Part shown: piece after piece, positions 1,427 through 18,907 of the stretch
Position numbering within the stretch: the stretch's first letter is position 1
How the letters are laid out: the number at the start of each line of letters is the position of its first letter
Virus record (IMG/VR): IMGVR_UViG_3300014838_000032
Span: 1-47,010 of that record
Length of the DNA stretch: 47,010 nt
Direction: 5' to 3' (one strand)
Origin: a virus
Notes under the pieces: model-generated
What the model saw: the letters and a program-made list of their open reading frames with translations, nothing else
What the model was told of the DNA's origin: nothing
Databases searched by the model: none
Translations under genes and position numbers: made by a program

Positions 1427-1428
1427 AA

Positions 1429-2899: not shown

Positions 2900-2929
2900 A
2901 AGCTAGGTAAAAACCAGAGCGGCCGTCAA
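2900..2929 (-). promoter_or_regulatory. Candidate promoter of the minus-strand recombination operon
   Basis: On the minus strand, TTGACG (2929-2924) and TAGCTT (2905-2900) are separated by 18 bases and point at the HIRAN gene. The spacer ends in TTTTTACC, so a protein bound to the adjoining element would overlap this promoter. The -10 box is weak. Confidence 0.4.
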
Positions 2930-2942
2930 GGGGTTTTTACCT
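2905..2942. promoter_or_regulatory. 11-bp perfect inverted repeat (AGGTAAAAACC ... GGTTTTTACCT) in a divergent promoter region
   Basis: AGGTAAAAACC at 2905-2915 and its exact reverse complement at 2932-2942 are separated by 16 bases, in the middle of the gap between two divergent operons. The core GGTTTTTACC recurs at 7261, 9344 and (one base short) 17146, always in gaps where transcription should begin. This looks like an operator for a regulator controlling several phage operons; the regulator is not identified. Confidence 0.55.
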
Positions 2943-3000
2943 GTTATTTATCCACCGGGGGATTCCCTTCCGGACTCCAAGGGGGTAGAACGATATCCCT

Positions 3001-4368: not shown

Positions 4369-4399
4369 CTACCAGAGACGGTTCATTAAGGAAGTAAAC

Positions 4400-4960
4400 A
4401 TGGGTAAGCGATCGCCTAATTTCGAGCGCGTAGCTAATGACGCCTATGACACGCCAGCGCGCGCGGTGTGGCCGCTGCTCGCGCATCTGGATAAGGACGA
4501 CTACTTCGCGGAGCCGTGCGCGGGGCAAGGCAACCTGATCCGTCACCTGCATAACGATCACATCTTCTGTGCCTATGCGAGCGACATCGCCCCACGACGC
4601 GCATCAACAAGACTTGAGCGCATCTGCCGCATTGAGAAGCGGGACGCGCTCAAGATCACCAAGGCCACGATTAACCATTGCGACGTCATCATCACGAATC
4701 CGCCATGGACGCGCTTGATCCTGCACGCGATCATCGAACACTTTATTTCGATCAAGCCAGCTTGGTATCTATTCGACGCGGACTGGATGCACAACGGCGA
4801 AAGCGCGTGGCTATTGCGGCGGTGTTCGAAGATTGTTGCGATAGGCCGCGTGAAGTGGATACCGGGGTCGCTGGCGGCGGGCAAAGATAATTCGTGCTGG
4901 TATTATTTCCCCGGGGGGAACTGGATCGGGCAGCCGACATTCTATGGGAGAAAAGGGTAG
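4400..4960 (+). CDS. N6-adenine DNA methyltransferase
   Basis: 186 aa from the ATG at 4400, with AAGGAAG upstream. Motif I appears as FAEPCAGQG (residues 36-44) and catalytic motif IV as NPPW (100-103, within VIITNPPWT). This is the amino-methyltransferase pattern, and NPPW favours adenine. There is no obvious target-recognition domain, as in short phage Dam-like or nonspecific enzymes. It may protect phage DNA from restriction or mark it for regulation. The stop is TAG, followed by 58 in-frame codons that read like protein up to a TAA at 5135-5137 (see findings). Confidence 0.85.
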   Translation: MGKRSPNFERVANDAYDTPARAVWPLLAHLDKDDYFAEPCAGQGNLIRHLHNDHIFCAYASDIAPRRASTRLERICRIEKRDALKITKATINHCDVIITNPPWTRLILHAIIEHFISIKPAWYLFDADWMHNGESAWLLRRCSKIVAIGRVKWIPGSLAAGKDNSCWYYFPGGNWIGQPTFYGRKG

Positions 4961-5180
4961 CCACAAGTTACGCCGTGGCCGATTGCGATCCAGAATGTTG
5001 GTTGGTTGCCCTTGGTGCAGTGGCCGAAGCCTTGCGATGTATGTGTCGGAACCGCTCCGCGAAACCAGATGCCTTGGATGAACGGCTGTAAATACCAGCT
5101 CTGTCAAGTCAGCCGGTGGATAACGGTGGAAAAATAATCCGGACTCGACACGGCCAGCGAATCAATCCTACAAAAGCAAA
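4961..5180 (+). other. Gap after the methyltransferase with an in-frame continuation
   Basis: Directly after the TAG at 4958-4960 the same frame stays open to TAA 5135-5137. It encodes Trp/Cys-containing sequence (WPIAIQNVGWLP, CDVCVGTAP, WMNGCKYQLC). There is no ATG near its beginning. It could be a stop-codon readthrough extension, the remains of a longer enzyme, or chance. Nothing else convincing was seen here. Confidence 0.3.
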
Positions 5181-5209
5181 CGGCCCGCCGGGGATAAACC
5201 GGCAGGCCG
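5181..5209 (-). terminator. Hairpin terminator for the small minus-strand gene
   Basis: Stem arms 5181-5191 and 5199-5209 (11 bp, one mismatch) enclose a 7-nt loop. On the minus strand the hairpin begins a few bases after the stop at 5214 and is followed by TTTGCTTTTG. That is the layout of a Rho-independent terminator reading leftward. Confidence 0.6.
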
Positions 5210-5213
5210 CAAA

Positions 5214-5393
5214 CTAAAATCCGATAGAAGCTTGGCGGCTGATCGGACCGAGACGATATGTAGTGCCTTTGTGCCCGTTCGTCAACGTTCGCCACCATCC
5301 CCTTGTGTCAATCGGTCGCGTGCCGCCCAAGCGCCCACGATCCGGTCGCGCGCGTCTACCAAGGCTTAGGATGGAATTGCGGCCATAGGTCAT
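5214..5393 (-). CDS. Small hypothetical protein
   Basis: 59 aa from the ATG at 5393; an in-frame GTG at 5429 would add 12 residues. It is basic, with GRRARPDRGRLGG and an aromatic, Thr-rich second half (RGWWRTLTNGHKGTTYRLG). No family is recognised and no Shine-Dalgarno is evident. The main support is the terminator-like hairpin immediately after its stop on the same strand. It would be an isolated gene opposing its neighbours, such as a small early or immunity-type gene, but that is speculation. Confidence 0.35.
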   Translation of the reverse strand: MTYGRNSILSLGRRARPDRGRLGGTRPIDTRGWWRTLTNGHKGTTYRLGPISRQASIGF

Positions 5394-5429
5394 ATGGGGG
5401 AGGGCTAAGAACGAGCCCCCGGTCGCCAC

Positions 5430-5683
5430 GTCGAGCGTGAAATATGTTCACCGTTGTTCTCTCTGCCGACGAGGGGGAATCGGGTCCGCAAGTAGCCTTT
5501 CAAGGCTCCCGGTCTAGCCAAAGGCGGACAGCTCTTTTGTCGGCCTTTGGTGGACTCTGTCTCGGTTCGGCCTATCGGCCAAACGATATAGATTTTCAAT
5601 TATTTGTTGAATCTAAGATTGTTAAGAAACAGAATCAGAGAAGAAAGCAAGATTCCCTGTTGATAAGCGGAGGAGAAAACGAA
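5430..5683. other. Gene-free leader before the replication genes, with hairpins and an AT-rich tract
   Basis: No convincing gene. It holds a small hairpin (AGCCTT-TC-AAGGCT, about 5494-5507), the strong hairpin at 5518-5550, GGCC-TAT-CGGCC, and an AT-rich stretch at about 5583-5640 (GATATAGATTTTCAATTATTTG). It ends in the ribosome-binding site GGAGGAG. The position just before the replication proteins makes it a candidate promoter/leader or replication origin; this is inference. Confidence 0.35.
5518..5550. other. Strong hairpin (8 bp + 4 bp around a G-G mismatch)
   Basis: CCAAAGGC (5518-5525) pairs with GCCTTTGG (5543-5550). After one mismatch, GACA pairs with TGTC, closing a 7-nt loop. No T-run follows on the plus strand, so it is more likely an RNA leader structure or attenuator part than a simple terminator. 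Confidence 0.45.
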
Positions 5684-6187
5684 ATGGCCACAGAAGTACA
5701 GATTTTGAAAATGGCGAGTATGATGCTGCTCTGCGGCGTCCCTCAACCGATCATAGATCAGGCCACGGCAGGCGCCGTGCGATCGAGGCCCAAAAAGACC
5801 AAAGGAACCAAATTAGTGCTTGCAGGTTCGTTCGAGGAATTTTGGCTGGTTTTTCCAAGGCGTGACGGGGCCTCGCCTAAACACGTTGCGGAGCTGAAAT
5901 TCATCGCAGCGATCAAGAGTGGGGAAAAACCAGAGATCATTATTGCGGCTGCCGTTAGACTCGGCTCAGAGTGGAAACATCGGCTTGAACGAAAGCTGGG
6001 AGACTCCAAATTCATTCCGATGGCGGCGACATGGCTGCATCAGAAGCGGTGGCTTGACGGTCCATCGGGGCGGCCACCGGACGGCGGCGAGACAATGTTC
6101 GACCTAGCCGATCATTTTGAACAGCGCGTGCGGGACCAAGGCAATGAGCAACGATCTGACGACGACGGCGGCCACTACCGGCGTTAG
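5684..6187 (+). CDS. Phage replication protein, replisome organiser/helicase-loader type C-terminal domain
   Basis: 167 aa from the ATG at 5684, which follows GGAGGAGAAAACGAA; the frame is open further upstream but without a good start. From about residue 60 it follows the pattern of the C-terminal domain of many phage replication proteins: FEEFWLVFPRR, a linker of Ala/Lys helices, then FIPMAATWLHQKRWLD. In relatives this domain accompanies DNA-binding replisome organisers and helps load a helicase. The N-terminal part is short, with no obvious winged helix, so the protein may act with the next gene product. It overlaps the next gene by 44 nt. Confidence 0.6.
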   Translation: MATEVQILKMASMMLLCGVPQPIIDQATAGAVRSRPKKTKGTKLVLAGSFEEFWLVFPRRDGASPKHVAELKFIAAIKSGEKPEIIIAAAVRLGSEWKHRLERKLGDSKFIPMAATWLHQKRWLDGPSGRPPDGGETMFDLADHFEQRVRDQGNEQRSDDDGGHYRR

Positions 6188-6959
6188 CGAGGAGCTGACG
6201 AAATCTCGCGCTGCGCTGCAATTGCTCCACACGTATGAAAACGACGTGCTTGAACAAGGGCGCATCCTTACACTGTCGCGCGAGATCCCGAAGACTGACA
6301 AGCAAGCCTTGTACGATCGGGCTACGGCTATCGGCAGGTCATTATCGCCATCTGTCCACGCGGGCATGGCTGCGCGAGAACGCACAGCAGCGGCAGTGAC
6401 GGCGATGCTTAGAGATGGTTGGCCGTTACATAAAATGGAGAGCCCGCACAAAGTAACAGCGGCCTACGTGAATGCGCTCGGCGATCATCCGGTTTGGGCG
6501 ATCGAGAGTGTCTGCAAGGCGCTGGCGCGCGGATTAGTCGAGGGCGTCAATCCGACGTTTCCACCGTCAGCGGCAGTCGTCGCGCAGCAATGCGAAAACA
6601 AAACTGTGGATATGCGCGAGGAAAAGTCGCGGTTCGTGCGCCTTCTATCGATCAAGGATATTCGCGCGCCGCAACTCTCAGAGGAGGAACTGGCTGGAAT
6701 TCGCGCGCGGCATGAAGAATGGAAGGTAAAAAACCAGAAGCCAGATCCTATCACGGAGGAGGAGCAACGGCGGCGGGAGGAGGCATCCAGTCAAGCAATT
6801 GCCGCAAGTCAGGCAAATATCATCGGGGCCTACAAGGCGATGGGGCGCCGGCCGCATTATGCGTCTGACGGCACATTGATCAGCCCGTCGCTGCTGAAAA
6901 GCATCGGGGTCAATCCAAAAACTGTTTTGCCGCCGATGGCGGATATGGACAAGCCATGA
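6144..6959 (+). CDS. Phage replication-associated protein
   Basis: 271 aa from the ATG at 6144. Helical throughout. A conserved-looking block at residues 80-155 (MLRDGWPLHKM, YVNALGDHPVWAIESVCKALARG, NPTFPPSAAVVAQQCE) resembles proteins that follow replication initiators in alphaproteobacterial phages. The C-terminal 90 residues are charged and coiled-coil-like. No Walker motif was seen, so it is not a DnaC-type ATPase. The 44-nt overlap with the preceding gene suggests the two products are made together. The exact role is not established. Confidence 0.55.
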   Translation: MSNDLTTTAATTGVSEELTKSRAALQLLHTYENDVLEQGRILTLSREIPKTDKQALYDRATAIGRSLSPSVHAGMAARERTAAAVTAMLRDGWPLHKMESPHKVTAAYVNALGDHPVWAIESVCKALARGLVEGVNPTFPPSAAVVAQQCENKTVDMREEKSRFVRLLSIKDIRAPQLSEEELAGIRARHEEWKVKNQKPDPITEEEQRRREEASSQAIAASQANIIGAYKAMGRRPHYASDGTLISPSLLKSIGVNPKTVLPPMADMDKP

Positions 6960-7183
6960 AGTGCAAGCATCCGGAAACCCAGATCACGGCGGTGCCGACA
7001 TATTTCGCGGACGATGACGTCACGGTGTTGTTGATCGCAGTCAGGTGTCTGGCGTGCAGGGTACGCTTTCGCTTCCTTGGCATCGATAGCAAACTGTCTG
7101 CCAGCACGCCCGGCGTCCAGAGGGGCGGTATGGTTGCCGCATTGCCCATGATCGAGATTGCCGGCCGTGAGCTGGTTAACTGA
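6956..7183 (+). CDS. Small zinc-binding-like conserved phage protein
   Basis: 75 aa, start overlapping the previous stop as ATGA. The N-terminus has MKCKHPE and the middle has VRCLACRVRFRFLG, giving a possible Cys3-His metal site. The rest is beta-rich. I recall similar short proteins downstream of replication genes in phages of Proteobacteria, but no function is assigned. It ends the replication gene cluster; a strong hairpin follows 37 nt later. Confidence 0.65.
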   Translation: MKCKHPETQITAVPTYFADDDVTVLLIAVRCLACRVRFRFLGIDSKLSASTPGVQRGGMVAALPMIEIAGRELVN

Positions 7184-7219
7184 TCCGCCGAGCCGGTGTC
7201 GTTCCGGTTGCGACGGGTA

Positions 7220-7267
7220 GAGGCGCCGACAAACGACCTGTATGGCGTCGGCGCCTCACTGGTTTTT
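7220..7267 (+). terminator. Perfect 11-bp hairpin followed by a T-run
   Basis: GAGGCGCCGAC (7220-7230) pairs exactly with GTCGGCGCCTC (7247-7257) around a 16-nt loop, and TTTTT follows at 7263-7267. It closes the 3290-7183 gene cluster. The T-run is also part of the GGTTTTTACC element, so one site may end a transcript and control the next. Confidence 0.6.
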
Positions 7268-7275
7268 ACCATAGA
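7261..7275. promoter_or_regulatory. Shared 15-mer GGTTTTTACCATAGA before gene 7329
   Basis: The identical 15-mer occurs on the opposite strand at 9339-9353, and its core also at 2907 and 2932. The distance from core to start codon here (58 nt) nearly equals that for gene 3001 (59 nt). It is a likely promoter-linked operator. Confidence 0.5.
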
Positions 7276-7328
7276 CAATCTGCCGGCGATCTGCATAGGG
7301 TCGGGAATCACAAACAGGAGGCGAGCCG

Positions 7329-7592
7329 GTGGGAGCTAAAATCCATTTCAACGATAGCGGTCGCACGGCGACGCAGAAGCCAAACCCAAAATACCCTGAC
7401 GGGATCGACGCGACTTGTGCGAAACCCGGTGAGGAATCATGTTGCTGGAACCTACCCTATCCGGCACCTCGCTGCGGAACCTATTCGGTGGTATGCGAGA
7501 CATGCCACTTCACAGCGCTCGTTACCGTCGCCGGTCGCCCCGACGATCCGCGGACACTGACGATGCCATGCAAGAGGATTAGACAACCATGA
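7329..7592 (+). CDS. Small cysteine-rich conserved phage protein
   Basis: 87 aa from a GTG preceded by ACAGGAGGCGAGCCG. It has many Cys (C30, C38, C39, C49, C56, C59, C82), with CETCHFTALV resembling a zinc knuckle and AGRPDDPRTLTMPCKR at the end. I recall related proteins in alphaproteobacterial phages but no known function. It is the first gene of a tightly coupled cluster (ATGA-type overlaps) running to 8815. Confidence 0.6.
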   Translation: MGAKIHFNDSGRTATQKPNPKYPDGIDATCAKPGEESCCWNLPYPAPRCGTYSVVCETCHFTALVTVAGRPDDPRTLTMPCKRIRQP

Positions 7593-8059
7593 ACACACGG
7601 CAATTTGCATCAATGAGGGCGCCGGAACATACGCTCTCGGAAAAGATTCTCCCGTTCTTGGTAGAGTGCGATCGAGCGCTGGCCGAAGCGTTGCGACTAC
7701 GCGAGGAGAATGCGGCGCTGACGTTGGAGCTGCGGCATTCTCGCACCATCCAAGATGAGGCGGCGGATCGGATCGATATCCTGACAAACGATCTAGCGCG
7801 CTCGAACCGGGAATGCTCGCTGCTGCGCGCGCGGATGAAAATGTTCGGCGAGGCAGCGACGACTATTGTCGCGGAAGCGGAAAAAGAATCACGCGCTCCA
7901 TTTGAACCGAGGCAGCGACCGTTCGTTCCAAAATATACGAATCATACTCGCGCGGTCAATGTGGTCGCGGCGATGTCGCAGGATGAAGAAACCGAGGCAT
8001 CGCGCGACACGTCGTCAGCTCATGATGTGCTTGCCAGCCTGCATCGGTTTAGCCAATGA
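7589..8059 (+). CDS. Coiled-coil hypothetical protein
   Basis: 156 aa, ATGA overlap with the previous gene. Residues 20-90 form a clear coiled coil (ALAEALRLREENAALTLELR, then LTNDLARSNRECSLLRARM). The C-terminal third is polar and probably disordered. No enzyme motif was seen. It may be a structural or scaffolding partner in the small early complex encoded by 7329-8815; this is inference. Confidence 0.55.
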   Translation: MNTRQFASMRAPEHTLSEKILPFLVECDRALAEALRLREENAALTLELRHSRTIQDEAADRIDILTNDLARSNRECSLLRARMKMFGEAATTIVAEAEKESRAPFEPRQRPFVPKYTNHTRAVNVVAAMSQDEETEASRDTSSAHDVLASLHRFSQ

Positions 8060-8277
8060 CGTCGCTAACCGTGGATGGTGGCGTTCTGACGATCGAGACG
8101 GCGAAGCCGCACGGGTATAAGTTTGGCGAGACGGTTACGTTCTCAGTGCAGGGCAAACAGGATCGTTGGTTGGTGACCAAGGTTCATAGTCCGACAAAAT
8201 TCAGCGCGATCCAAGACAAGCGCCCTCGCAATCAACGTCGCATCGACAAGGCGAACATAAGGAAGATGGGACTATGA
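8056..8277 (+). CDS. Small beta-rich hypothetical protein
   Basis: 73 aa, ATGA overlap with the previous gene. The first 50 residues alternate like a small beta barrel (LTVDGGVLTIETAKPHGYKF, VTFSVQGKQDRWLVTKV). The last 20 are Arg/Lys-rich, which would suit binding to nucleic acid. No family is recognised. Confidence 0.55.
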   Translation: MTSLTVDGGVLTIETAKPHGYKFGETVTFSVQGKQDRWLVTKVHSPTKFSAIQDKRPRNQRRIDKANIRKMGL

Positions 8278-8645
8278 CAAAACATATCATCGTGCCCGGC
8301 GGCTGGCAGGGAATCACCAAGGTAGGCCAGCGCGTGATCAACGTCATTCCACTCATCGCCAATTGCAGAGTGGTCAGATATCTGCCGCAGGTTGGCTTGG
8401 TCTATACCGTGGCTGGCTTTGCGGATTGTCCCGGTGTCGACTGTCCGGAGGAGGAGCGACCGGGGATCTACCTGAATGAAGTCAAATCGGCCTATTGCGG
8501 ATGCGGGGAAGTGAGCCTGCCATTTCCGATGATCGCATTCCGTCCGGTTGATACGGTCGAGAAGAAAAGCGAAGTCATCACCAAGATGCTCGCGGACATT
8601 CTGCGCAAGACCAAGATCGATACGCGCGTTCCGGAGGACGTGTGA
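8274..8645 (+). CDS. Hypothetical phage protein with Cys pairs
   Basis: 123 aa, ATGA overlap with the previous gene. The N-terminal half is beta-rich with YTVAGFADCPGVDCPEEERPG, then AYCGCGEVSLPF; the four Cys could bind a metal. The C-terminus is a Lys-rich helix. No family is recognised. It lies within the coupled 7329-8815 cluster. Confidence 0.55.
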   Translation: MTKHIIVPGGWQGITKVGQRVINVIPLIANCRVVRYLPQVGLVYTVAGFADCPGVDCPEEERPGIYLNEVKSAYCGCGEVSLPFPMIAFRPVDTVEKKSEVITKMLADILRKTKIDTRVPEDV

Positions 8646-10640: not shown

Positions 10641-10817
10641 TCAGCGCTTGGCCTTCGCCTTGCGCGGCTTGCCACGATGCTTTGAAGCCTCAATGGTCGC
10701 GGCTTTCAGGTTGTCGATCGTCGCGGCCTTGGGAGCCCGCGCATTCTTTCCTGCATAGTTGGATTGAGCGAGCGCGCGCTGCGCCAGCTCTTTCGGTCCG
10801 ATGGTTCTCTCAGCCAT
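10641..10817 (-). CDS. Small basic hypothetical protein, last gene of the AAA+/VWA operon
   Basis: 58 aa from the ATG at 10817, 7 nt after GGAG; the ATG at 10823 is too close to that site. An Ala/Lys/Arg-rich helical peptide (ELAQRALAQSNYAGKNARAP, ending HRGKPRKAKAKR). No family is recognised; the charge suggests contact with nucleic acid. It overlaps the previous gene by 8 nt. Confidence 0.5.
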   Translation of the reverse strand: MAERTIGPKELAQRALAQSNYAGKNARAPKAATIDNLKAATIEASKHRGKPRKAKAKR

Positions 10818-10992
10818 CGCCATACTCCTTTCTGATCTTGTCGAGATAAGAGGTATAGGAGATCGTCGGCGGAAGAAGCGGAAGATCTGGCTTGATAGCG
10901 GCGGCACGTTTCTTTCGCTCGCGCCGCCGCTGGTTTCTCTTCGCCCGTGCTTCCGGGGTCCGCTTTTTCTTTCCGATGCGGGGCGCGCTCAT
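10810..10992 (-). CDS. Small Arg/Lys-rich protein
   Basis: 60 aa, ATGA overlap with the preceding gene in the operon. The first 35 residues are very basic (KKKRTPEARAKRNQRRRERK), followed by Pro/Leu and a short helix (YLDKIRKEYG). Probably binds nucleic acid or ribosomes; no family is recognised. Confidence 0.5.
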   Translation of the reverse strand: MSAPRIGKKKRTPEARAKRNQRRRERKKRAAAIKPDLPLLPPTISYTSYLDKIRKEYGDG

Positions 10993-11330
10993 GGCAGACT
11001 CGACGTCATGAGAACGGGCGGCAGCTCGATCGGCGAGCTATCGTGTAGTGATCGCATCCCTTCCTCTGTCGCGTCTAAGGCGCCGCTTTTCGACGGCTCA
11101 ACGAAGATCGACCAGCCGCCGCTCAACCACGTTTGAACGAGGCAGACGCCCATCGGACTGCCATCCTTTCCCCAAAGCGCGAAGCAAAATATTTCGTCGA
11201 CCTCGGTGTCCATTGGGCCGTCGATCGTCCAATAGTTTTTGCCGCTGAAACGCTCCATGAATTTGAAAAGGTCGGCGCGTGATGCTGACGTTTTATTTAA
11301 TTGCTCTGGCGAGCGTCGTTTGGTTCGCAT
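10989..11330 (-). CDS. Hypothetical phage protein
   Basis: 113 aa, ATG at 11330 after the strong site CAATAGGAGA. After a basic start it looks like a compact alpha/beta domain (FMERFSGKNYWTIDGPMD, EIFCFALWGKDGSPMGVCLV, GGWSIFVEP). No family is recognised. The gene carries the operon's shared ribosome-binding element. Confidence 0.55.
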   Translation of the reverse strand: MRTKRRSPEQLNKTSASRADLFKFMERFSGKNYWTIDGPMDTEVDEIFCFALWGKDGSPMGVCLVQTWLSGGWSIFVEPSKSGALDATEEGMRSLHDSSPIELPPVLMTSSLP

Positions 11331-11366
11331 GGTCTTTCTCTCCTATTGTAGAACGGTTGAAGGGCT

Positions 11367-11759
11367 CTATTCGTAGTGTGGCGTTTCTTCTGGGAAGCGA
11401 TCAGGCGCCATGCCTTCGAACACCATCGCTTCATAGCGACCTGTCGACAAGACGCTGCTGATCGGCCGGCGGCGCGCGTTGGCGGTGATATCCAACACCT
11501 GCTGCACGGCAGCGGCGCATTGATTGGCCAGCTCCTCGGCCGTGGCACTGGCGAACGTGACGTTCCAAGAATGTTCTGGAAAGGGCGTTCCCTCCATTCC
11601 ATCGATCATTGAGGTGACCTTGACTCCAGCGTCATAGTACCAGCCGCCCTCCTCGGCGCCGCCATACTCGCGATCGACGAGATAGATGGCAACGCTCCAT
11701 AGCGGTCGCGGCACAAGGCCGTTGTCGATCAAGCGGTGATCAGTTTCGATTTCCTGCAT
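11367..11759 (-). CDS. Hypothetical phage protein
   Basis: 130 aa, ATG at 11759 after TAACAGGAGA. A mixed alpha/beta sequence with PLWSVAIYLVDREYGGAEEG, VKVTSMIDGMEGTPFPEHSW and an Ala-rich helix (ATAEELANQCAAAVQQVLD). No family is recognised. It belongs to the AAA+/VWA operon by strand, spacing and ribosome-binding element. Confidence 0.55.
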   Translation of the reverse strand: MQEIETDHRLIDNGLVPRPLWSVAIYLVDREYGGAEEGGWYYDAGVKVTSMIDGMEGTPFPEHSWNVTFASATAEELANQCAAAVQQVLDITANARRRPISSVLSTGRYEAMVFEGMAPDRFPEETPHYE

Positions 11760-11773
11760 GGTTCATTCTCCTG

Positions 11774-12340
11774 TTAGACGTTGAGCATCTGGTTAAGCTT
11801 CTCAAGCTTCGCAGCCGTGGCGATATAGCCTTCGTCACGATACGAATATTTGCAACGAAGCGCGTTGCGTAAAATCGCGATGGTCGGCGGCGTGTTGCCG
11901 ATCGTCCACACTGGCGCCTTGACGATCAAGCGTCCCTTGATCTTGACCACTTCGAAAGGAAGACCAGCGCTTTGCGGCGCAGGCTTGGGCGCTGGCGGCG
12001 GAGCAGCGGCGCGCTCCGCCTTTTCTTTCATCGCCGCCTCATACATCTTTTTCCATTCGTCGGGCTCGCGCTCACGCCGCTCGCTGGCAACAGCGGCCTG
12101 CAAAGCCTGCCTCTGACGTTGCACGCGGGCATCCCCTATCGGCTCAAACGAGCGCGGTGACGTGCCTTCCCTCATGAGCGCTTGCCTTTGCTTTGCGCGG
12201 ATCGCGGTTTCAACAGCCTCGCCATAGGCGCGGCGATCGGCCTTGGCCATCTTGGCGATCGGCCCGCGCTTGCGAAACTTCGCGACGCCAGAACCAAGAT
12301 CGGGATATATCGGACCAAATTGTTCTTCGAGTGATGCCAT
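11774..12340 (-). CDS. Hypothetical protein, charged with a C-terminal globular domain
   Basis: 188 aa from the ATG at 12340, after CAATAGGAGAG; the frame is open upstream without a good start. The N-terminal two thirds are Arg/Lys/Glu/Ala helices (KMAKADRRAYGEAVETAIRA, then QRQALQAAVASERRE), then a Pro/Ala linker. The end reads like a small domain (FEVVKIKGRLIVKAPVWTI, then YSYRDEGYIATAAKLEKL). No family is recognised. Confidence 0.55.
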   Translation of the reverse strand: MASLEEQFGPIYPDLGSGVAKFRKRGPIAKMAKADRRAYGEAVETAIRAKQRQALMREGTSPRSFEPIGDARVQRQRQALQAAVASERREREPDEWKKMYEAAMKEKAERAAAPPPAPKPAPQSAGLPFEVVKIKGRLIVKAPVWTIGNTPPTIAILRNALRCKYSYRDEGYIATAAKLEKLNQMLNV

Positions 12341-12395
12341 TTTTACTCTCCTATTGAAATGTGATATTCGGAAAGCCTCTCCTCGCCGGGTTGGC

Positions 12396-12405
12396 TCTCC
12401 TGTTG
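12396..12405 (-). promoter_or_regulatory. Orphan copy of the operon's ribosome-binding element
   Basis: On the minus strand this reads CAACAGGAGA, the element that precedes most genes of this operon, yet no start codon follows at a usable distance. It may be what remains of a deleted gene between 12340 and 12457. Confidence 0.4.
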
Positions 12406-12422
12406 ACCGGGTTTGGATAGAG

Positions 12423-12451
12423 GGGGCGAGCTGCGGTGAACAGCTCGCCCC
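12423..12451 (-). terminator. Perfect 11-bp hairpin inside the operon
   Basis: GGGGCGAGCTG (12423-12433) pairs with CAGCTCGCCCC (12441-12451) around a 7-nt loop, just past the stop of gene 12460-12657 on the minus strand. There is no long T-run on that strand, so it may only partly stop transcription or protect the RNA. It would lower expression of the five genes downstream relative to the AAA+/VWA genes. Confidence 0.5.
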
Positions 12452-12459
12452 AACTCTTT

Positions 12460-12657
12460 TCAGCGAGCCAACCAAAGCGCAAGCGGGAGTGACAACGCGG
12501 CAACGATTGCAACAGCGATGCAAGCCAAGATCAGCGCGGGCACCACTGGTTTGCTCGGTGGTTCGGAATAATCATCGTCCCAGCCATGCGAGTCCCATGG
12601 GCAACGGCAATCCTCGTCGATCTTGCCGCATCGTGCGCATGTCGATTTCATTAGCAT
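12460..12657 (-). CDS. Small zinc-ribbon protein with one membrane helix
   Basis: 65 aa, ATG at 12657 after CAATAGGAGAG. The N-terminus has CARCGKIDEDCRCPW, a likely metal knuckle, followed by an acidic, aromatic linker. Residues 39-63 form a single hydrophobic segment (ALILACIAVAIVAALSLPLA). The metal site would sit on one side of the inner membrane. It lies directly after the VWA gene, suggesting a membrane anchor or sensor for that complex; this is inference. Confidence 0.6.
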   Translation of the reverse strand: MLMKSTCARCGKIDEDCRCPWDSHGWDDDYSEPPSKPVVPALILACIAVAIVAALSLPLALWLAR

Positions 12658-12669
12658 TTCGTTTCTCTC

Positions 12670-14010
12670 CTATTGGTTGACGTCGACGCATTCCCCAAAG
12701 GGGACTTTGCTTTGATAGTATTGCAGAACGCGCGGATCTCCGTATCCACACCATAGCGTAGGAAAGTGCGGTTCTGGTCCAAAGTCACTGCATTGCATAT
12801 CAGTGAAGATTAACAGACATTGGATATCGGGAGCATTCTCGGCGAACCACTTGAACACTGGCGAGAACGCGGTGCCTCCGCGGCCGGGGATTTCCCAATC
12901 GATCGTTTCCCCCGGCGAGTATTCCTTCGATGCTGTCACGCGAGTATCGAAGAAAATTTGTGTCAGCTTGTCGATGCGACCATCATCAAGCGCGGCTTGC
13001 GTCTCGCCACCAAAGGTTCGCAGCGTTCCAGTGTTGACGCTTAGAGAAGCATCGATGGCGATGCCAACATGCGACACGCCATCGCTGATCAGGCCGGGAA
13101 CGTAGTATCCCATGGACATGAGCCGGCGATTCGGGTTCTGCCATGAGTAGTCTTTGGTTGCGCTCGGATCGACAAAGCGCTGCACCACTTCGCGCCAGTC
13201 TGTCTTGGGATCAGCCAGATCGTTGATGATCTCTTTGATGAAGCCCGGCAGCTCGCCGGCTTTCTTCGCGATGTTGACAGCCTGACGAACGGCCACTTCC
13301 CATTCGCCTTCTGCCTCGCTCAATGCAGCCTTGTCGTGCTCTGGCGCTGCGTCTAGGATCTCGCCGCAGTGACCGGGGTCACCATGGCCAGACGGAAGCG
13401 CTTCACCATCGCCAGAGCCATCGCCAGCACCGCTGGCTTCGTCATCGCTGTCGCCTTCGTCCCCTTCGTCGCTCTGATCGCTGTCCCCTTCGTCGTCGCC
13501 TTCGCTGTCGTCTGGCTCGTCGCCAGCGCTAGGCTGCTCGTGCTGCGAGTCTTGCGAGTCCTGCGACTCATCTGACTCCTGTTCATCCTCTTGCTGCTGT
13601 TCCTCGTCCTCAAGAAAGCGATAAACCTGTTCCGCATTCAGGCCAGTGAAGCGACGATCAAGCAAAACGAATTTCGGAAGTTTGAAGCCTGCATCTAGCA
13701 CCATCGGATTGACGACGTAGTCACAGGCTTTATTCCAGCGATCATGGTCGCGATCGCCACGGCGCACATGATGTCCAAGGATGCAATGGAACAGCTCATG
13801 CACGAACGTTCCAAGCAACTCGGCTTCCGAAACCTCGTCGAGATATTCTGGATGGTAGTAAGTGGCATGGCCATCGGTGGCCATGGTCTTGGATTTTAGC
13901 GACGTGTTCTGCACGATCGGCATTCGCATAACCAGCGAGCCGAAGAAGGCGTGATCAGTCACAAGGATTGATCGCGCGCGGGTTACTCTGATATCGACGA
14001 TCTCATTCAT
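12670..14010 (-). CDS. VWA-domain protein with a metallopeptidase-like HExxH domain (DUF2201 type)
   Basis: 446 aa from the ATG at 14010, overlapping the AAA+ gene stop as ATGA. Residues 1-135 are metallopeptidase-like, with HELFHCILGHH at 71-81 containing HExxH. Residues about 135-200 are an extremely acidic Ser/Asp/Glu/Gln linker. The C-terminal domain is a von Willebrand A fold with the metal-site motif DASLS at 320-324 and FTD later. Bacterial relatives sit beside MoxR ATPases, which remodel partner proteins through the VWA domain. The acidic linker recalls CobT of cobalt chelatase, but the HExxH domain argues for the DUF2201 group. The substrate is unknown. Confidence 0.8.
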   Translation of the reverse strand: MNEIVDIRVTRARSILVTDHAFFGSLVMRMPIVQNTSLKSKTMATDGHATYYHPEYLDEVSEAELLGTFVHELFHCILGHHVRRGDRDHDRWNKACDYVVNPMVLDAGFKLPKFVLLDRRFTGLNAEQVYRFLEDEEQQQEDEQESDESQDSQDSQHEQPSAGDEPDDSEGDDEGDSDQSDEGDEGDSDDEASGAGDGSGDGEALPSGHGDPGHCGEILDAAPEHDKAALSEAEGEWEVAVRQAVNIAKKAGELPGFIKEIINDLADPKTDWREVVQRFVDPSATKDYSWQNPNRRLMSMGYYVPGLISDGVSHVGIAIDASLSVNTGTLRTFGGETQAALDDGRIDKLTQIFFDTRVTASKEYSPGETIDWEIPGRGGTAFSPVFKWFAENAPDIQCLLIFTDMQCSDFGPEPHFPTLWCGYGDPRVLQYYQSKVPFGECVDVNQ

Positions 14011-15014
14011 AGCGTTACGTCCTGATGCGCACACGCCCACGAACCGTAAGCTTTGGTGTTTTTCAAACCAGCTTCGCGGCGGGTCGCGGATTTGATGATC
14101 ATGACTTGGTAGTCGGGGAGAAGTCGTCCAACATACTCCATCGCGCGATCAAAATTCTTGCGATCGACAAGGCGAGCGACCATGCCGGCGACGGCGTAGT
14201 AAAGGCCAGCCTCGCGCCCCTCTGGGATGCGAGCAGTTTTCGGATCGGCAAGAATTTCCTCGAACGAGATCACGGATTGCATGATGCGCATGAACGCTTC
14301 AAACTCGCCCGCGGCGTCATCGCCAACCCATCCAGCGAACAGCTTGTGTCGGAATGTCGGATCGTTGTCGATCGCCTTGAAAGACTTCGTCCATGACCGC
14401 GCTGACGGAAACGCTGTCTGATCGGCTGTCGGCATCACTGAAAACAGTTCGGGGCGATGCTTGAGGAAGGCCACGCCATAAGGATGAACGTTCGCAAAGC
14501 CGAATTGCTCCAGCCATGAAACGACGTCGGATTTAACGTGCTGCACATTGAAGCGGTTTGCGAGCGCGGTGGACAAACGTTGCGCGCTGGCACGATCGCC
14601 CACGTTATTGCCTGACGCCATAGGAACCCAGCCATCCGGCATTTTGTATGAGCCAGATCGGCGCTCTTGGATCAGGCCATAACCAGCGGCCTGCATCATG
14701 GCGCTAACGGCGTTGATTTCGTCGCAGACAAACAATCCAGCCTTGCCATGCTTTTTAACGTTGGGCAGATCGTCTGGAACGAAATGGCGCATGAAGCCAG
14801 TTGTCAGATCGGGAATGCGCATCCCGCCGATATCGACGGGATCTCGCATTGTGAAGCGAAAATCTATGAAGCCAATCCCCAGCGCAGTGGCGACGCTTTC
14901 AAACAGCGCTGATTTGCCAGAACCCGGCGAGCCCATAAGGAACAGCGGCTCATTGATCGCGTAGCAAGCTTTGATCATGCGTTCGGCTTCGAGCATCGTG
15001 ATTTGAACGGTCAT
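14007..15014 (-). CDS. MoxR-type AAA+ ATPase
   Basis: 335 aa, ATG at 15014 after CAATAGGAGA. Walker A is GSPGSGKSA (28-36) and Walker B is LFVCDEIN with D98 and E99. Typical MoxR features follow: RDPVDIGGMRIPD, a sensor-type ASGNN, and an arginine-rich ANRFN block. MoxR ATPases act as chaperone-like remodelers with VWA partners. The ATGA overlap with the VWA gene supports a physical partnership. A similar sequence, CobS, belongs to cobalt chelatase, and some phages carry cobS-like genes; the HExxH domain of the neighbour makes a MoxR/DUF2201 pair more likely. Confidence 0.85.
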   Translation of the reverse strand: MTVQITMLEAERMIKACYAINEPLFLMGSPGSGKSALFESVATALGIGFIDFRFTMRDPVDIGGMRIPDLTTGFMRHFVPDDLPNVKKHGKAGLFVCDEINAVSAMMQAAGYGLIQERRSGSYKMPDGWVPMASGNNVGDRASAQRLSTALANRFNVQHVKSDVVSWLEQFGFANVHPYGVAFLKHRPELFSVMPTADQTAFPSARSWTKSFKAIDNDPTFRHKLFAGWVGDDAAGEFEAFMRIMQSVISFEEILADPKTARIPEGREAGLYYAVAGMVARLVDRKNFDRAMEYVGRLLPDYQVMIIKSATRREAGLKNTKAYGSWACAHQDVTL

Positions 15015-15071
15015 AGTAAAGTCTCCTATTGTGTGTGATGCGCACGGTGATGCGCGGTTTCAGTTTGAGAT

Positions 15072-15983
15072 TTAACCCATCAGTGCTTCAGCATCGGCCA
15101 AGATAGAAGCCGCGGCTTTCTTCGTGGAGTCGCGCAGCTTGGCATCTGTCTTTAGTTCTGATGCGTCATGGCTGCAAAGGTCGTCTCGCATCCGCACGAT
15201 GATCTTGTCTAGTTTCTTATTATTCGCCAGATTGAAGGCAGGCAGCAAGGTCACAAGGTCGCGGATGTTATTGACCATCGACTCTTGGAATAGCCCCTCA
15301 GGTCGCTTGCCGCTGCCCGGCTTGGCGGGTTTGAAAGCGGTCAATCTTTCGACCATGTGCCCTACGGTTTCTAAGACGCGGTGGATCGGTTCATCCATCG
15401 CGTGTTCAAGAGCGTCGCGCATCCGACGTTCGAGATCTTCTTTGATATCCTGCGCATGTTCATCGGCAAGCGAGACTCGAAAATCTTCAATGTCAGGACA
15501 CGGCATGACGACCATGTCGAACATGAATCGGCCATTCGGATTTTTCTTCCAATCGTAAATGGTCATTTCGTTGGCGTCGGGATAATCATCAGCATTGAAC
15601 ATCCCGTTGAGCCGCGACTTAGCATCTGTCACGGTTTGCGGATAAGAGACAGCAAACGTTCTAACGGCTGCCTCATACTCTGCCTTGAACGCTCGCATGG
15701 TCTTTGCATATTCGTCATATAGAGCAGTAGGCAGGACGCGCGCGCCATCGTCATACCATGGCTGCGTGAGGCGGTAGCTCGCCGCGCGTGCGGCGCTAGC
15801 GATACGATTGATATCGGCGATCGCTTCCTTGGCGATCAGAAGTTTGTTGTATCGGCCGGCATCTTCGTTAGCGTGATGGCGGCGGTTGGTTTCGGCGGTG
15901 ACTTTCTTGTCATAGGCGCGCGCGCCCCAACCGGAAATGTTTACGGAAGCGAGAACGGCTTTCTGCGAGAGTAGGTTGGTCAT
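15072..15983 (-). CDS. DUF3150-like protein, third member of the AAA+/VWA triad
   Basis: 303 aa, overlapping the upstream gene as ATGA. Helical, with an N-terminus of SVNISGWGARAYDKK, a middle segment (TQPWYDDGARVLPTALYDEY, then FAVSYPQTVTDAKSRL) and a long helical C-terminus. From memory this resembles DUF3150 proteins, which sit beside MoxR and VWA genes in plasmids and phages; a profile search is needed for certainty. It would be the adaptor or substrate component of the ATPase complex. The gap of 57 nt to the ATPase gene is the largest in this part of the operon. Confidence 0.6.
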   Translation of the reverse strand: MTNLLSQKAVLASVNISGWGARAYDKKVTAETNRRHHANEDAGRYNKLLIAKEAIADINRIASAARAASYRLTQPWYDDGARVLPTALYDEYAKTMRAFKAEYEAAVRTFAVSYPQTVTDAKSRLNGMFNADDYPDANEMTIYDWKKNPNGRFMFDMVVMPCPDIEDFRVSLADEHAQDIKEDLERRMRDALEHAMDEPIHRVLETVGHMVERLTAFKPAKPGSGKRPEGLFQESMVNNIRDLVTLLPAFNLANNKKLDKIIVRMRDDLCSHDASELKTDAKLRDSTKKAAASILADAEALMG

Positions 15984-16201
15984 GACTGTTTCCTTTTCTG
16001 GATCAATGCATCCGCAATGGATGCGAGGAGGAGTTGTTCAAGCGGGAGTCGGAATTGTCGACGCTTGGCAGCGGCGACGATCTTGCGGAGGGATTTGGTG
16101 TGCATCCGCATGACGCGGCGAACATCGTCGGCAATGCGCTGCACTTCTGCGGTATCGCTAACGGTTGCGGGCATAGTGAACAGCCACAGCGATCGGTTCA
16201 T
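15980..16201 (-). CDS. Small helical hypothetical protein
   Basis: 73 aa from the ATG at 16201, which has TAGGG upstream; the ATG at 16174 is a possible alternative. Charged amphipathic helices (AEVQRIADDVRRVMRMHTKS, then LRKIVAAAKRRQFRL). Its stop overlaps the DUF3150-like start as ATGA, so it is probably coupled to it. No family is recognised. Confidence 0.5.
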   Translation of the reverse strand: MNRSLWLFTMPATVSDTAEVQRIADDVRRVMRMHTKSLRKIVAAAKRRQFRLPLEQLLLASIADALIQKRKQS

Positions 16202-16301
16202 CGAACCCTATTATGTTGAACGATACGGCGAGCAATGTCAGCGCCCCGACTAGCGAGAGCAACGTGAGCGCGCTGCAAATAGCGAGTTCTTTGGTCGTCA
16301 T
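16158..16301 (-). CDS. Tiny one-helix membrane protein
   Basis: 47 aa from the ATG at 16301 after CAACAGGAGA. Residues 5-30 are one hydrophobic segment (LAICSALTLLSLVGALTLLA). The strong ribosome-binding site supports it. Its gene overlaps the end of the membrane protein gene before it by 104 nt and the next gene by 44 nt. It may anchor the AAA+/VWA system to the membrane; this is inference. Confidence 0.5.
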   Translation of the reverse strand: MTTKELAICSALTLLSLVGALTLLAVSFNIIGFDEPIAVAVHYARNR

Positions 16302-16611
16302 GTTCTGTTTCTCCTGTTGAGATCCGCGGTGACGGATCGGGGTTGTATTCACGATCAAGCCAGCGAGCGCGGCGGCGCGCTGGCGCACAAAGCTTCGAGA
16401 CATGGAGGAAGCGGTCGCAGCGAGCGACGATCGCAGCGGCCACAAATCGCAAGATCAGGATTGGAGCAAGCGGCAGGATTGTCAGCACCGCAATCGTTGT
16501 CAGTCGAATGCGAGTGGACAATAGGATGTAGGCAACGAACGTCAGAAGCATCAGCGCCGCCAGCATCACTGCCAGCGGCGCGCGGTCGATCAGACCGAGG
16601 AGCGTTGTCAC
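16198..16611 (-). CDS. Membrane protein with two predicted helices
   Basis: 137 aa from a GTG that overlaps the previous stop as GTGA. Two hydrophobic segments lie at residues 12-32 and 38-62 (LAVMLAALMLLTFVAYILL, then IAVLTILPLAPILILRFVAA), followed by a basic, probably cytoplasmic tail. The last 35 codons lie over the start of the 47-aa membrane protein in another frame, so the true end of this protein's useful part is uncertain. Confidence 0.5.
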   Translation of the reverse strand: MTTLLGLIDRAPLAVMLAALMLLTFVAYILLSTRIRLTTIAVLTILPLAPILILRFVAAAIVARCDRFLHVSKLCAPARRRARWLDREYNPDPSPRISTGETEHDDQRTRYLQRAHVALASRGADIARRIVQHNRVR

Positions 16612-16973
16612 GCTGGCACCCAGCCTTTCTTCATAAGTTTTTGCCAAGCGCCATTGTGCCAGCGAGTCTCTCTGCGGCATTTCGGGCACGGGATAGGTGT
16701 GATCTCAATCGAGAGCGATGCGGTTTGCCCGAGGTTCGATAGCTCGCCGCGAACCCAATTGCCGTTTCCAAGATAGCAGGACACGCGGCCATCGGTGATC
16801 GAAGCCGGTTTTCCGATCGCCTCGTCCACGCGGCAATAAGACATACCTTCAGACTTTAGCGATGCGATCGGCCAAACCTGCCGAATACGCTCCGGCTTGT
16901 TGTAATCGGTCGTGACGTACTCGAAACCAAACTTCGAATGTTCGAGCGCGATGATTTTACCCTGTAGCGCCAT
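16608..16973 (-). CDS. Zinc-ribbon-containing hypothetical protein, first gene of the AAA+/VWA operon
   Basis: 121 aa from the ATG at 16973 after CTAACAGGAGT. The first 90 residues look like beta strands (GKIIALEHSKFGFEYVTTDY, then ASITDGRVSCYLGNGNWVRG). The C-terminus has PIPCPKCRRETRWHNGAW, half of a zinc ribbon. As the first gene it may be a regulator or small binding protein. The candidate promoter and the GGTAAAAAC element lie about 160-190 nt upstream. Confidence 0.6.
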   Translation of the reverse strand: MALQGKIIALEHSKFGFEYVTTDYNKPERIRQVWPIASLKSEGMSYCRVDEAIGKPASITDGRVSCYLGNGNWVRGELSNLGQTASLSIEITPIPCPKCRRETRWHNGAWQKLMKKGWVPA

Positions 16974-17131: not shown

Positions 17132-17161
17132 AATATAGAGTATAGGGTAAAAACAAGTCAA
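17132..17161 (-). promoter_or_regulatory. Candidate promoter of the AAA+/VWA operon, containing the shared element
   Basis: On the minus strand TTGACT (17161-17156) and TATATT (17137-17132) are 18 bases apart. The spacer contains GTTTTTACC (17154-17146), the core of the element found at 2905/2932, 7261 and 9344. The surrounding gap (16974-17368) holds no gene and is AT-rich around this site. Confidence 0.55.
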
Positions 17162-17368
17162 CAGCCCTTTTTGGCCCATAAGAGGCTGAAAATACACCAT
17201 TTTTTAACCTATTCCCCCATGCCAAGGCCAGCCCAAGCCAAAAACGTGCACTTTTGGGATGATTCCAGCTCTGGAAAAACCAGCCTCAAACGCCCCAATA
17301 ATTTGCCAGCGAATCATTGAGCGGTTACAGATGATTCGCCCGCATCATGCGGTTGAGGAGAATCGACA

Positions 17369-17467
17369 ATGGCAAAGAAAGCCAAGAAGGCGAAGAAGGC
17401 ACCAAAGAAAGCTGCGAAGAAGGCTGGACGGCGCGGCAAGCCCGGCAAGCCGAGAGGCGGCGGTTAG
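17369..17467 (+). CDS. 32-residue Lys/Ala-rich histone-tail-like peptide
   Basis: ATG at 17369, 7 nt after GAGGAGA, ending in TAG. The first 19 residues are almost only Lys, Ala and Pro (AKKAKKAPKKAAKKAG), followed by RRGKPGKPRGGG. This resembles the tail of H1-like bacterial nucleoid proteins and would bind nucleic acid. The next gene begins 2 nt later with a TTG. It is too short to be sure of, but the start signal is good. Confidence 0.5.
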   Translation: MAKKAKKAKKAPKKAAKKAGRRGKPGKPRGGG

Positions 17468-17469
17468 CG

Positions 17470-18396
17470 TTGTCTGAGTTATTGGAATCGACAAAGAGCG
17501 CGCTTGAAAAGGCGCGCTCAATGTCTCCGAAAGTGCTGGTCGCTTATTCTGATGGCAAAGACTCTCGCGTTGTGATGGACCTTGCGAAGCGTTGGTTTGA
17601 TCACGTCGAGGGTTTCTATATGGAATGGGTGCCGGCGATCGCCTACATGGATGCCGATCTCGCTGCGGTAGAGAAAAGGTGGAGCGTCAAGATCCATCGC
17701 TTTCCGCACTACGGCGGGATCGCAGCGATGAAAGAGGGCCAGTATTGTAATCCTTGGTGGCAACGCGACGACGTCCCGGATATCAAGCTGGCTGATATCT
17801 ATTCGTATGCGATGATCGAAACCAAGATCCCACTGATCCTCACCGGCGCCAAGAAAGCCGATAGCGGATGGCGCAAGCGCTTCATGCACGCGACTCAGCA
17901 TTGGGGCAGGATCGTCTATCCGCTCGCGGAGTGGGCCAAGTGGGACGTGCTTTCGTATCTCAAGGGCCGTGGCATCGCTATCCCCGATAATTCCGCTGGA
18001 GGCACGGCAAGCGGCGTTGGCCTTGTGCCTCATGAGCTAATGTGGATCTATGATAATCATCCGGCCGACTTCTGGCGCATCGCAGAATATTTTCCCTATA
18101 TCGAGGCGCTGATCTGGCGAAGGAAATTTTATGGCACAGACGCAGAGCGCTCCGCCGTCGTTGCTGGAAAGCCTCGCACCGAGCGAGGGCTCACCGAAGA
18201 AGAAGCGGGCCAGCAAAAAAAGCGAGGCAGTCGAAGGCGGGCTGTCAAATTTGCAGACGTTCAAGATCGAGCGAATGAACAGGCGGCTGCTGACGGCGGC
18301 GCCGTACAATCCTCGGATCTTGAGCGAAGCGGCCAAGCGAAAGCTACGGACAGGTTTGAAGAAGCACGGCCTAGTAGCGCCGCTGACGTGGAATAA
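17470..18396 (+). CDS. PAPS-reductase-like (adenine nucleotide alpha-hydrolase) protein
   Basis: 308 aa if it begins at TTG 17470; ATG 17521 is a possible alternative. The nucleotide-binding loop is VAYSDGKDSRVVMDLA (residues 24-39), the pattern of PAPS reductases and of DndC-type sulfur-transfer proteins. Other blocks are FHYGG-like FPHYGGIAAMKEG, YCNPWW and LILTGAKKADSGWRKR. The recognisable domain ends near residue 220. The last 88 residues are encoded over the start of the ParB-like gene in another frame. Phages often carry such a gene next to a ParB-like one; the reaction is unknown, and base or tRNA modification is a guess. Confidence 0.7.
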   Translation: MSELLESTKSALEKARSMSPKVLVAYSDGKDSRVVMDLAKRWFDHVEGFYMEWVPAIAYMDADLAAVEKRWSVKIHRFPHYGGIAAMKEGQYCNPWWQRDDVPDIKLADIYSYAMIETKIPLILTGAKKADSGWRKRFMHATQHWGRIVYPLAEWAKWDVLSYLKGRGIAIPDNSAGGTASGVGLVPHELMWIYDNHPADFWRIAEYFPYIEALIWRRKFYGTDAERSAVVAGKPRTERGLTEEEAGQQKKRGSRRRAVKFADVQDRANEQAAADGGAVQSSDLERSGQAKATDRFEEARPSSAADVE

Positions 18397-18907
18397 ACGC
18401 ACTGGCAATCTGGTCGGTGGCCATCAGCGCATTGATCAGCTCGACGCCATCGCCGGGACCGATGATTATGATCTCGATATTGCGGTGATTGACGTCGACG
18501 ATATTCGCGAAAAGGAATTGAACCTATTGCTCAACAATCAAGAGGCCGCCGGTGACTTCGACATGGAAGGATTGCAGAATATCCTGCGTACCACTGGACT
18601 TGATCTTGACGGTACAGGTTTCGATCACTCCGACATTTTCAAACTATTCGGAGACTCCGTGTTCCTCGCTCAAGATGACGGCAAGCTGGAGGAGTTTGCG
18701 CAGCGGGTCCGCGATATGCGGGACGCCTATGATGGCGTGAAGTCGGGCCAAGGCGCGCGCAACAGCGAAAGCTTCTATCTGGTCGTGGTGTTTCGCAGCG
18801 AGGAAACGCGCCAGCATTTCACGAACAAGCACGGACTGGAGGACAATCGATATCAATCAGGGGAGGAGTTCGATCGGCTCATGAGCCCGACGAAGCTGCC
18901 GCAATAG
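18131..18907 (+). CDS. ParB-like nuclease-domain protein
   Basis: 258 aa from the ATG at 18131, preceded by AAGGAAATTTT. A basic, disordered N-terminus of about 45 residues is followed by the ParB N-terminal fold: APYNPRILSEAAKRKLRTGL, then KHGLVAPLTWNKRTG, then NLVGGHQRIDQL. These give the nucleotide- and DNA-contacting GGHQR motif. A later helical part contains LNLLLNNQEAAGDFD. Phage ParB-like proteins are often orphan DNA-binding proteins or nucleases near terminase genes. It overlaps the PAPS-reductase-like gene by 266 nt and the opposing DUF488 gene by 29 nt. Confidence 0.75.
   Translation: MAQTQSAPPSLLESLAPSEGSPKKKRASKKSEAVEGGLSNLQTFKIERMNRRLLTAAPYNPRILSEAAKRKLRTGLKKHGLVAPLTWNKRTGNLVGGHQRIDQLDAIAGTDDYDLDIAVIDVDDIREKELNLLLNNQEAAGDFDMEGLQNILRTTGLDLDGTGFDHSDIFKLFGDSVFLAQDDGKLEEFAQRVRDMRDAYDGVKSGQGARNSESFYLVVVFRSEETRQHFTNKHGLEDNRYQSGEEFDRLMSPTKLPQ

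Follow-up and report, generated by a model that had tools for sequence, protein, structure and literature searches.

Three neighbouring genes, which code for an AAA+ ATPase, a zincin-VWA protein and a DUF3150 protein, form a module common to unrelated phages and plasmids, including conjugative ones. We hold this with very high confidence: it rests on three protein families, on their conserved catalytic and metal-site residues, on a strict three-way linkage, on correlated divergence and on the presence of the triad in plasmids. The module is found in the window, by which we mean the whole stretch of 47,010 nt analysed here (positions 1 to 47,010 of IMG/VR virus record IMGVR_UViG_3300014838_000032). 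On the whole we lean slightly towards the reading that the three genes form an ATP-driven remodelling or peptidase complex of phages and plasmids, with DUF3150 as adaptor, which would act in the establishment or replication of mobile DNA. As judged from its sequence the ATPase-VWA pair is already known from N4 gp24/gp25 and from a jumbo-phage pair of 2021; the apparent novelty lies in the third gene and in the distribution of the triad.

The triad lies among 13 genes, all on the (-) strand, which can be read from position 16973 down to 10641 (Table 1). The coordinates and the overlapping same-strand genes given by the initial annotation were all verified on the window sequence; the ATPase and VWA genes share a 4-nt overlap (ATGA). 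The phage is contractile-tailed, has a genome of 74.6 kb and is not N4-like. A near-identical contig of 74.7 kb closes on itself, and a search of phage records found nothing closely similar to the window DNA.

Table 1. Features of the triad region in the window, in the direction of transcription
Feature	Positions	Strand	Remarks
Sigma-70-like promoter TTGACT-18-TATATT	17132..17161	(-)	about 160 nt ahead of the operon; a match to the consensus only
121-aa protein, first operon gene	16608..16973	(-)	one CxxC near the C terminus; no family match; not conserved
137-aa protein, hydrophobic N-terminal segments, GTG start	16198..16611	(-)	small membrane candidate; outside the conserved module
47-aa single-TM peptide	16158..16301	(-)	small membrane candidate; outside the conserved module
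73-aa basic protein	15980..16201	(-)	4-nt overlap with the DUF3150 gene; outside the conserved module
DUF3150-type protein, 303 aa	15072..15983	(-)	third core component; tblastn, profile HMM, PF11348 in relatives
MoxR/midasin-clade AAA+ ATPase, 335 aa	14007..15014	(-)	N4 gp24 family (phrog_1297)
DUF2201 zincin-VWA protein, 446 aa	12670..14010	(-)	N4 gp25 family (phrog_1314)
65-aa protein, CxxC...CxC cluster, then TM helix	12460..12657	(-)	small membrane candidate; outside the conserved module
Strong GC hairpin, -29 kcal/mol	12423..12451	(-)	inside the putative operon, separating the 65-aa TM gene from the genes further down
188-aa basic protein	11774..12340	(-)	no assigned function
130-aa protein	11367..11759	(-)	weak phrog_7302 match
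113-aa protein	10989..11330	(-)	no assigned function
60-aa basic peptide	10810..10992	(-)	sequence
58-aa basic peptide, last operon gene	10641..10817	(-)	sequence

The closest profile relatives of the ATPase place it in the MoxR/midasin clade. It matches phrog_1297 over its full length (2.8e-67), and the best solved relative of its profile is Midasin (1.7e-40), with the next AAA families at about 1e-11. Midasin/Rea1 grips its substrates with a MIDAS domain; it is a eukaryotic ribosome assembly factor with six AAA units in a single chain, whereas the system in the window is made of separate subunits. Walker A, the Walker B Asp, the sensor 1 Asn, the Arg-finger residue Arg 154 and the PR of sensor 2 are invariant or nearly so in 17 ATPase sequences, and the enzyme looks active. 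In Pfam it stays below the cut-offs (AAA_3 21.2 bits against 27, bpMoxR 18.8 against 27); the MinM2 relative is above them for AAA_5 and AAA, and that of LUZ7 for AAA.

The VWA protein has an N-terminal zincin-like metallopeptidase domain with HExxH, an acidic linker and a C-terminal VWA domain with a full MIDAS (DASLS, residues 320–324). The HELFH motif and acidic linker noticed in the initial annotation are borne out: the motif occupies residues 71–75 and the linker is 52% D/E over 50 aa. The protein matches PF13203 (3.5e-48) and PF09967 (2.8e-17) in Pfam, and phrog_1314 over its full length (2.6e-92). HExxH, H80, D97, D320/S322/S324, T380 and D404 are all invariant in 17 sequences; the only solved relative found by profile search is an M48 peptidase. 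Members of this family bear the label HNH endonuclease in many of the records listed.

The third protein had been called a probable DUF3150 protein, which is right at the family level: some of its relatives match PF11348, although the protein of the window alone stays below the cut-off (8.2 bits against 24.9). Three of the nine members of its alignment match PF11348, the best one at 2e-8, and the protein of one further locus (L097) scores 99 bits with the DUF3150 profile HMM and 47 bits against PF11348. A tblastn search finds cyanophages carrying the same triad, plus 42 plasmids. In the scan of bacteria a profile built from phages only gave no matches; matches were obtained with a plasmid-based profile. 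Among 398 genomes of the phylum, DUF3150 was seen in a single one, namely the genome used as centre. A profile search for solved relatives gave only insignificant coiled-coil or helical matches, and a literature search covering 5.39 million papers found no mention of DUF3150. The family also has a divergent branch of 18 loci. In all 14 of these which are not cut off, the gene lies directly downstream of one for a classical AAA+ ATPase; thus DUF3150 is associated with AAA+ ATPases in two different contexts.

The three genes are linked far beyond chance. In all 72 loci with complete neighbourhoods the ATPase and VWA genes are found beside DUF3150, on one strand and within about 8 kb; four other DUF3150 loci, cut by contig ends, are outside this count. 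The initial annotation had suggested a survey of the triad and its neighbours in phages, and the association turns out not to be random. Three gene orders are found: AAA-DUF-VWA in 66 loci, AAA-VWA-DUF in five and DUF-AAA-VWA in the window only. When 21 neighbourhoods were compared all against all, the three triad families alone recurred across unrelated loci, antisense shadows aside, and no fourth gene common to unrelated elements was found. The pairwise distances of the three proteins in 16 triads are correlated (r 0.84–0.95, Mantel p 0.0002). Most of the counted loci are Burkholderiales plasmid relatives, so that the 72 loci are not independent events. Such kinship is what one would see if three early genes were passively hitch-hiking in a few related elements. 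We consider this very improbable: the hosts span cyanobacteria (through their phages), Alpha- and Betaproteobacteria and a WWE3 MAG, besides viral contigs of unknown host, and the gene order is shuffled while the linkage is kept and no other gene stays.

The carriers of the triad are unrelated phages, proteobacterial plasmids, many of them conjugative, and a few chromosomes; among them are the cultured cyanophage Pag-Yong1 and an environmental Cupriavidus plasmid. In plasmids the triad often adjoins PRTRC and type IV secretion (T4SS) genes; other plasmid triads adjoin Toprim/primase genes, and the stretch viewed around them has no PRTRC or T4SS genes. PRTRC was rejected as an obligate partner: the Simplicispira, Variovorax and Rhodovastum plasmids lack it, as do the phage records that were searched, so that the link is not general. 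In the Rhodocyclus and Dechloromonas genomes the PRTRC search gave only ThiF-type matches below cut-off, away from the triad. Loci outside plasmids are near RecT/primase, DNA polymerase A (LUZ7, CRP-7 and L012) or DnaG/twinkle-like primase genes. The closeness to replication genes may be due only to the clustering of early genes.

N4 gp24 and gp25 are neighbouring genes of the same ATPase and zincin-VWA families as those in the window, and are core genes of N4-like phages (PMC7650795). The N4-like phage LUZ7 has no detectable DUF3150 in its whole record, in contrast with the contractile-tailed phage of the window. A whole-record profile search gave the same result for Thermus phage phiFa, Roseobacter phage CRP-7 and Bacillus phage G, all with ATPase and VWA genes present; the third part is thus dispensable in some lineages. 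Two candidates for a hidden DUF3150 were discarded: LUZ7 gp036, just upstream of the ATPase, is ClpX-like, and phage G gp569 has only coiled-coil matches.

For the group 2.2 jumbo phages a similar pair was reported in 2021, a MoxR AAA+ ATPase and a VWA co-chaperone with an N-terminal metallopeptidase; the accessible text of that report describes no third component or plasmid occurrence, unlike the triad (PMC7824862). It also proposes a role in virion assembly (Iyer et al. 2021), in which the pair would be a chaperone/peptidase that folds or trims structural proteins. This proposal is in line with the analogous role of p618/p892 in Acidianus two-tailed virus (cited in PMC7159879), with the spread of the pair in phages (773/512 phage records) and with the second structural module of roseophage RPP1, whose virion protein genes adjoin the gp24/gp25 homologues (PMC4193335). 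However plasmids, which make no virions, carry all three genes with the conserved residues unchanged. In the window the triad and the virion genes are on opposite strands, the nearest virion gene (terminase, 24439) being more than 7 kb away, and gp24/gp25 of N4 are middle genes, not late ones (PMC4193335). A role solely in virion assembly fits poorly with the plasmid copies, and we judge a virion chaperone or peptidase unlikely. The same holds for virion maturation as the sole role and for a phage-specific takeover function; the initial annotation had put forward virion maturation and takeover of a host complex.

The same three-part logic is seen in the ternary MoxR-vWA conflict systems (VMAP, iSTAND): a MoxR ATPase, a vWA-peptidase fusion and a distinct third protein (PMC7159879, PMC12839542). 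The triad could be a mobile version of them, sensing and destroying host immune proteins or competitors. Its presence in phages and plasmids and the weak bpMoxR match of the ATPase agree with such a counter-defence role. On the other hand the conflict systems are host immunity, whereas the triad is on phages and plasmids and has no effector expansions; its third protein is DUF3150, neither VMAP nor iSTAND in Pfam. The N-terminal WxhapG/PsWRxa region defined for MoxR of the VMAP subtype (PMC7159879) is not in the window ATPase, which has fewer than 30 residues ahead of Walker A. PADLOC gave no defence family match beyond a weak P-loop match, and accessory anti-defence genes do not usually have the near-universal core status that is seen in N4-like phages. 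Counter-defence or inter-element conflict has in our opinion a low probability.

A MoxR-type ATPase with a VWA partner is also found in RavA-ViaA and CobS-CobT, and the initial annotation had considered a cobalt chelatase with CobN elsewhere in the genome. Apart from this architecture, a distant match to the CobS-type phrog_249 (porphyrin biosynthesis, 6.8e-9) would point to chelatase subunits of cofactor metabolism; phrog_1297 is far better. The VWA partner is a DUF2201 protein with an added zincin domain, the RavA, ViaA, CobS and CobT families gave no match in NCBIfam, and CobN is absent from the window and from the near-identical contig. The CobS/CobT identity is for practical purposes excluded. 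The analogy with MoxR-VWA remodelling drawn in the initial annotation fits.

We therefore return to an ATP-driven machine of mobile elements. Remodelling or peptidase action is the probable biochemistry of the triad. We infer a complex in which the ATPase would form a hexameric ring and the VWA domain would use its Mg-MIDAS site to grip the substrate. The energy of ATP hydrolysis would serve to pull on the substrate, to reshape it or to present it for cleavage by the zincin domain, and DUF3150 may be the substrate adaptor or scaffold. The most likely target would be a host or element protein complex important in the establishment or replication of foreign DNA, not the virion. The triad is kept together in unrelated phages and conjugative plasmids, so it probably helps to establish mobile DNA rather than to build particles; for this role as such we find the chances evenly balanced. 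More tentatively, the triad might be an undescribed ternary machine which unrelated phages and plasmids share for the establishment of foreign DNA, with a conserved host target. The literature search found no experiment on any triad and, in the papers covered, no experimental function for the ATPase-VWA pair, although this pair belongs to the core of N4-like phages and occurs in hundreds of phage records. The presence on plasmids narrows the question, as the job must serve both virus and plasmid, and function can be assayed by plasmid transfer as well as in phage N4.

The other ten genes of the operon have no relative in any other triad locus, so that a thirteen-part unit is not borne out. The initial annotation had suggested that the system acts at the inner membrane. 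Since none of the tiny membrane proteins, zinc-ribbon proteins or basic peptides recurs in other triad loci, this argument falls. As a zinc-ribbon candidate the first operon gene, with its single CxxC, is weak. The GC hairpin has no U-tract on the operon strand. Promoter-like matches of the kind found upstream of the operon number two, against 3.2 expected by chance.

The three large proteins of the window operon belong to a conserved group of genes, the triad: an AAA+ ATPase, a DUF2201 zincin-VWA protein and a DUF3150-type protein. We considered the DUF3150 loci which score over 200 bits and have complete surroundings. The ATPase and VWA genes are found on the same strand as DUF3150 in 72 of these 72 loci, many of which are related Burkholderiales elements and not independent cases; the distant loci show the same linkage. 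Gene order varies, with three types (66, 5 and 1 loci). Contig ends truncate the four incomplete loci; L086, with a truncated DUF3150 gene, has the ATPase and lacks the VWA gene. An all-against-all comparison of 21 neighbourhoods recovered the three families in 17–20 of them and no further shared family outside close relatives, antisense shadows aside. The pairwise distances of the three proteins are correlated: r = 0.84, 0.92 and 0.95 (Mantel p 0.0002). The other genes of the window operon have no relative in any other triad locus. Re-reading the window sequence agrees with the initial annotation in the 13 genes, the strand on which they lie and the positions of the three large proteins.

Features of the window and of a related plasmid pair
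Feature	Positions	Strand
Operon of 13 genes	10641–16973	-
Hairpin, 3' of the 65-aa TM gene	12423–12451	
VWA protein	12670–14010	-
AAA+ ATPase	14007–15014	-
DUF3150-type protein	15072–15983	-
PAPS-reductase-like gene	17347–18396	+
ParB-like gene	18131–18907	+
667-aa protein	30434–32437	+
Region listed with the self-overlap of IMGVR_UViG_3300038465_000055	1–8507	
ATPase-VWA pair of Synechocystis plasmid pSYSA (L023)	26352–28630 (pSYSA)	

The ATPase belongs to phrog_1297, the N4 gp24 family (2.8e-67). It has relatives in 773 phage records, a count limited by the sensitivity of tblastn; the best have about 27–31% identity. With a 17-sequence profile its nearest solved relative is Midasin (1.7e-40). 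The 17 sequences conserve Walker A, the aspartate of Walker B, Asn136 of sensor 1, Arg154 and the PR motif of sensor 2, so the protein should be an active ring ATPase. In the VWA protein a DUF2201_N metallopeptidase domain (3.5e-48) precedes a DUF2201 VWA-like domain (2.8e-17). Residues H71, E72, H75, H80 and D97, as well as the MIDAS residues D320, S322, S324, T380 and D404, are invariant in the 17 phage, plasmid and genome sequences compared. An M48 peptidase is the one relative of solved structure that its profile finds. Conservation does not extend to the acidic linker: 52% D/E in the window, about 18–22% in plasmid members. PHROG 1314 labels this family "HNH endonuclease", and this or "homing endonuclease" has spread to many phage records (H65, H67–H69, H73 and H106 among them); the zincin and VWA domains contradict such an assignment.

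On its own, the third protein scores 8.2 bits against PF11348. Its homologues reach 2e-8 and 47 bits, so it is a divergent DUF3150. Within the sensitivity of tblastn, relatives are found in three equally long cyanophage records (29.5% identity) and 42 plasmids (Burkholderiales and Rhodovastum); they also occur in eight more viral contigs and 79 genome loci, including Rhodocyclus, Dechloromonas, WWE3 and Planctomycetes lineages. A divergent DUF3150 branch of 18 loci, among them Planctomycetes and Desulfobacterota-type MAGs, has neither the triad ATPase nor the VWA partner. A classical AAA+ ATPase lies upstream in all 14 of its loci with an uncut neighbourhood; DUF3150 thus accompanies an AAA+ ATPase in each of two distinct settings, and this points to a possible role as adaptor or scaffold. 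This branch is possibly a second undescribed module of mobile elements. Its ATPases have 470–580 aa, and the loci inspected also hold DUF6094, helicase, UvrD or PD-(D/E)XK genes. A literature search, mostly of journals open without subscription, gave no paper on "DUF3150".

In Burkholderiales plasmids the triad has PRTRC genes on one side and a type IV secretion cluster on the other. The Simplicispira and Rhodovastum triad plasmids have no PRTRC; they have a Toprim/primase gene nearby. Primase genes are also neighbours in Rhodocyclus and Dechloromonas, the latter with RecT and, within about 17 kb, an integrase and a partition gene. In phages the pair of ATPase and VWA genes is often near a DNA polymerase or primase. 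In an even sample of 398 phylum genomes, with at most six candidates scored in each, only the centre genome matched. From these settings and this near-absence, the module is mainly a property of mobile elements. The Synechocystis plasmid pSYSA has MoxR ATPase and VWA-like DUF2201 genes side by side, with no annotated DUF3150; being in a model cyanobacterium, this pair is a handy experimental system.

The pair itself is already known: it is core in N4-like phages (PMC7650795) and is described in jumbo phages (PMC7824862). For the triad and for its sharing with plasmids we found no description in the literature searched. In MoxR-VWA pairs generally, the VWA protein grips a substrate peptide and ATP hydrolysis remodels the substrate (PMC7159879). 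The triad divides its labour as ternary conflict systems do: there the vWA protein can bear a peptidase, and sensing or regulation falls to a third protein (PMC12839542). The triad would be an ATP-driven complex that acts in remodelling or as a peptidase, with the DUF3150 protein as its adaptor, and its target might be something that restricts how incoming DNA becomes established or replicates. Virion assembly, proposed for the jumbo-phage pair (PMC7824862), may still hold in some phages: in roseophage RPP1 virion genes adjoin the pair (PMC4193335). Virion assembly cannot explain every case, since the triad is also present on plasmids.

The window is an IMG/VR phage fragment. The contig IMGVR_UViG_3300038465_000055 (74,737 bp) covers all of it with 99.9% identity and overlaps itself by a 129-bp terminal repeat, which indicates a closed genome of about 74.6 kb, of which the window makes up about 63%. 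This phage encodes a contractile tail (sheath, baseplate wedge and hub), its major capsid protein has 55% identity to that of Pantoea phage PdC23, and no N4-type RNA polymerase was seen in the subset of open reading frames scanned. The hairpin inside the operon is strong (-29 kcal/mol, z -5.8): it may split the operon into two units or act in attenuation. The PAPS-reductase-like gene overlaps the ParB-like gene, a layout which we take to be that of IbrA/IbrB-type phage genes. The 667-aa protein matches NUDIX hydrolases in its N-terminal 67 aa, a head maturation protease weakly in its middle part, and over its whole length phrog_6216, a family of unknown function.
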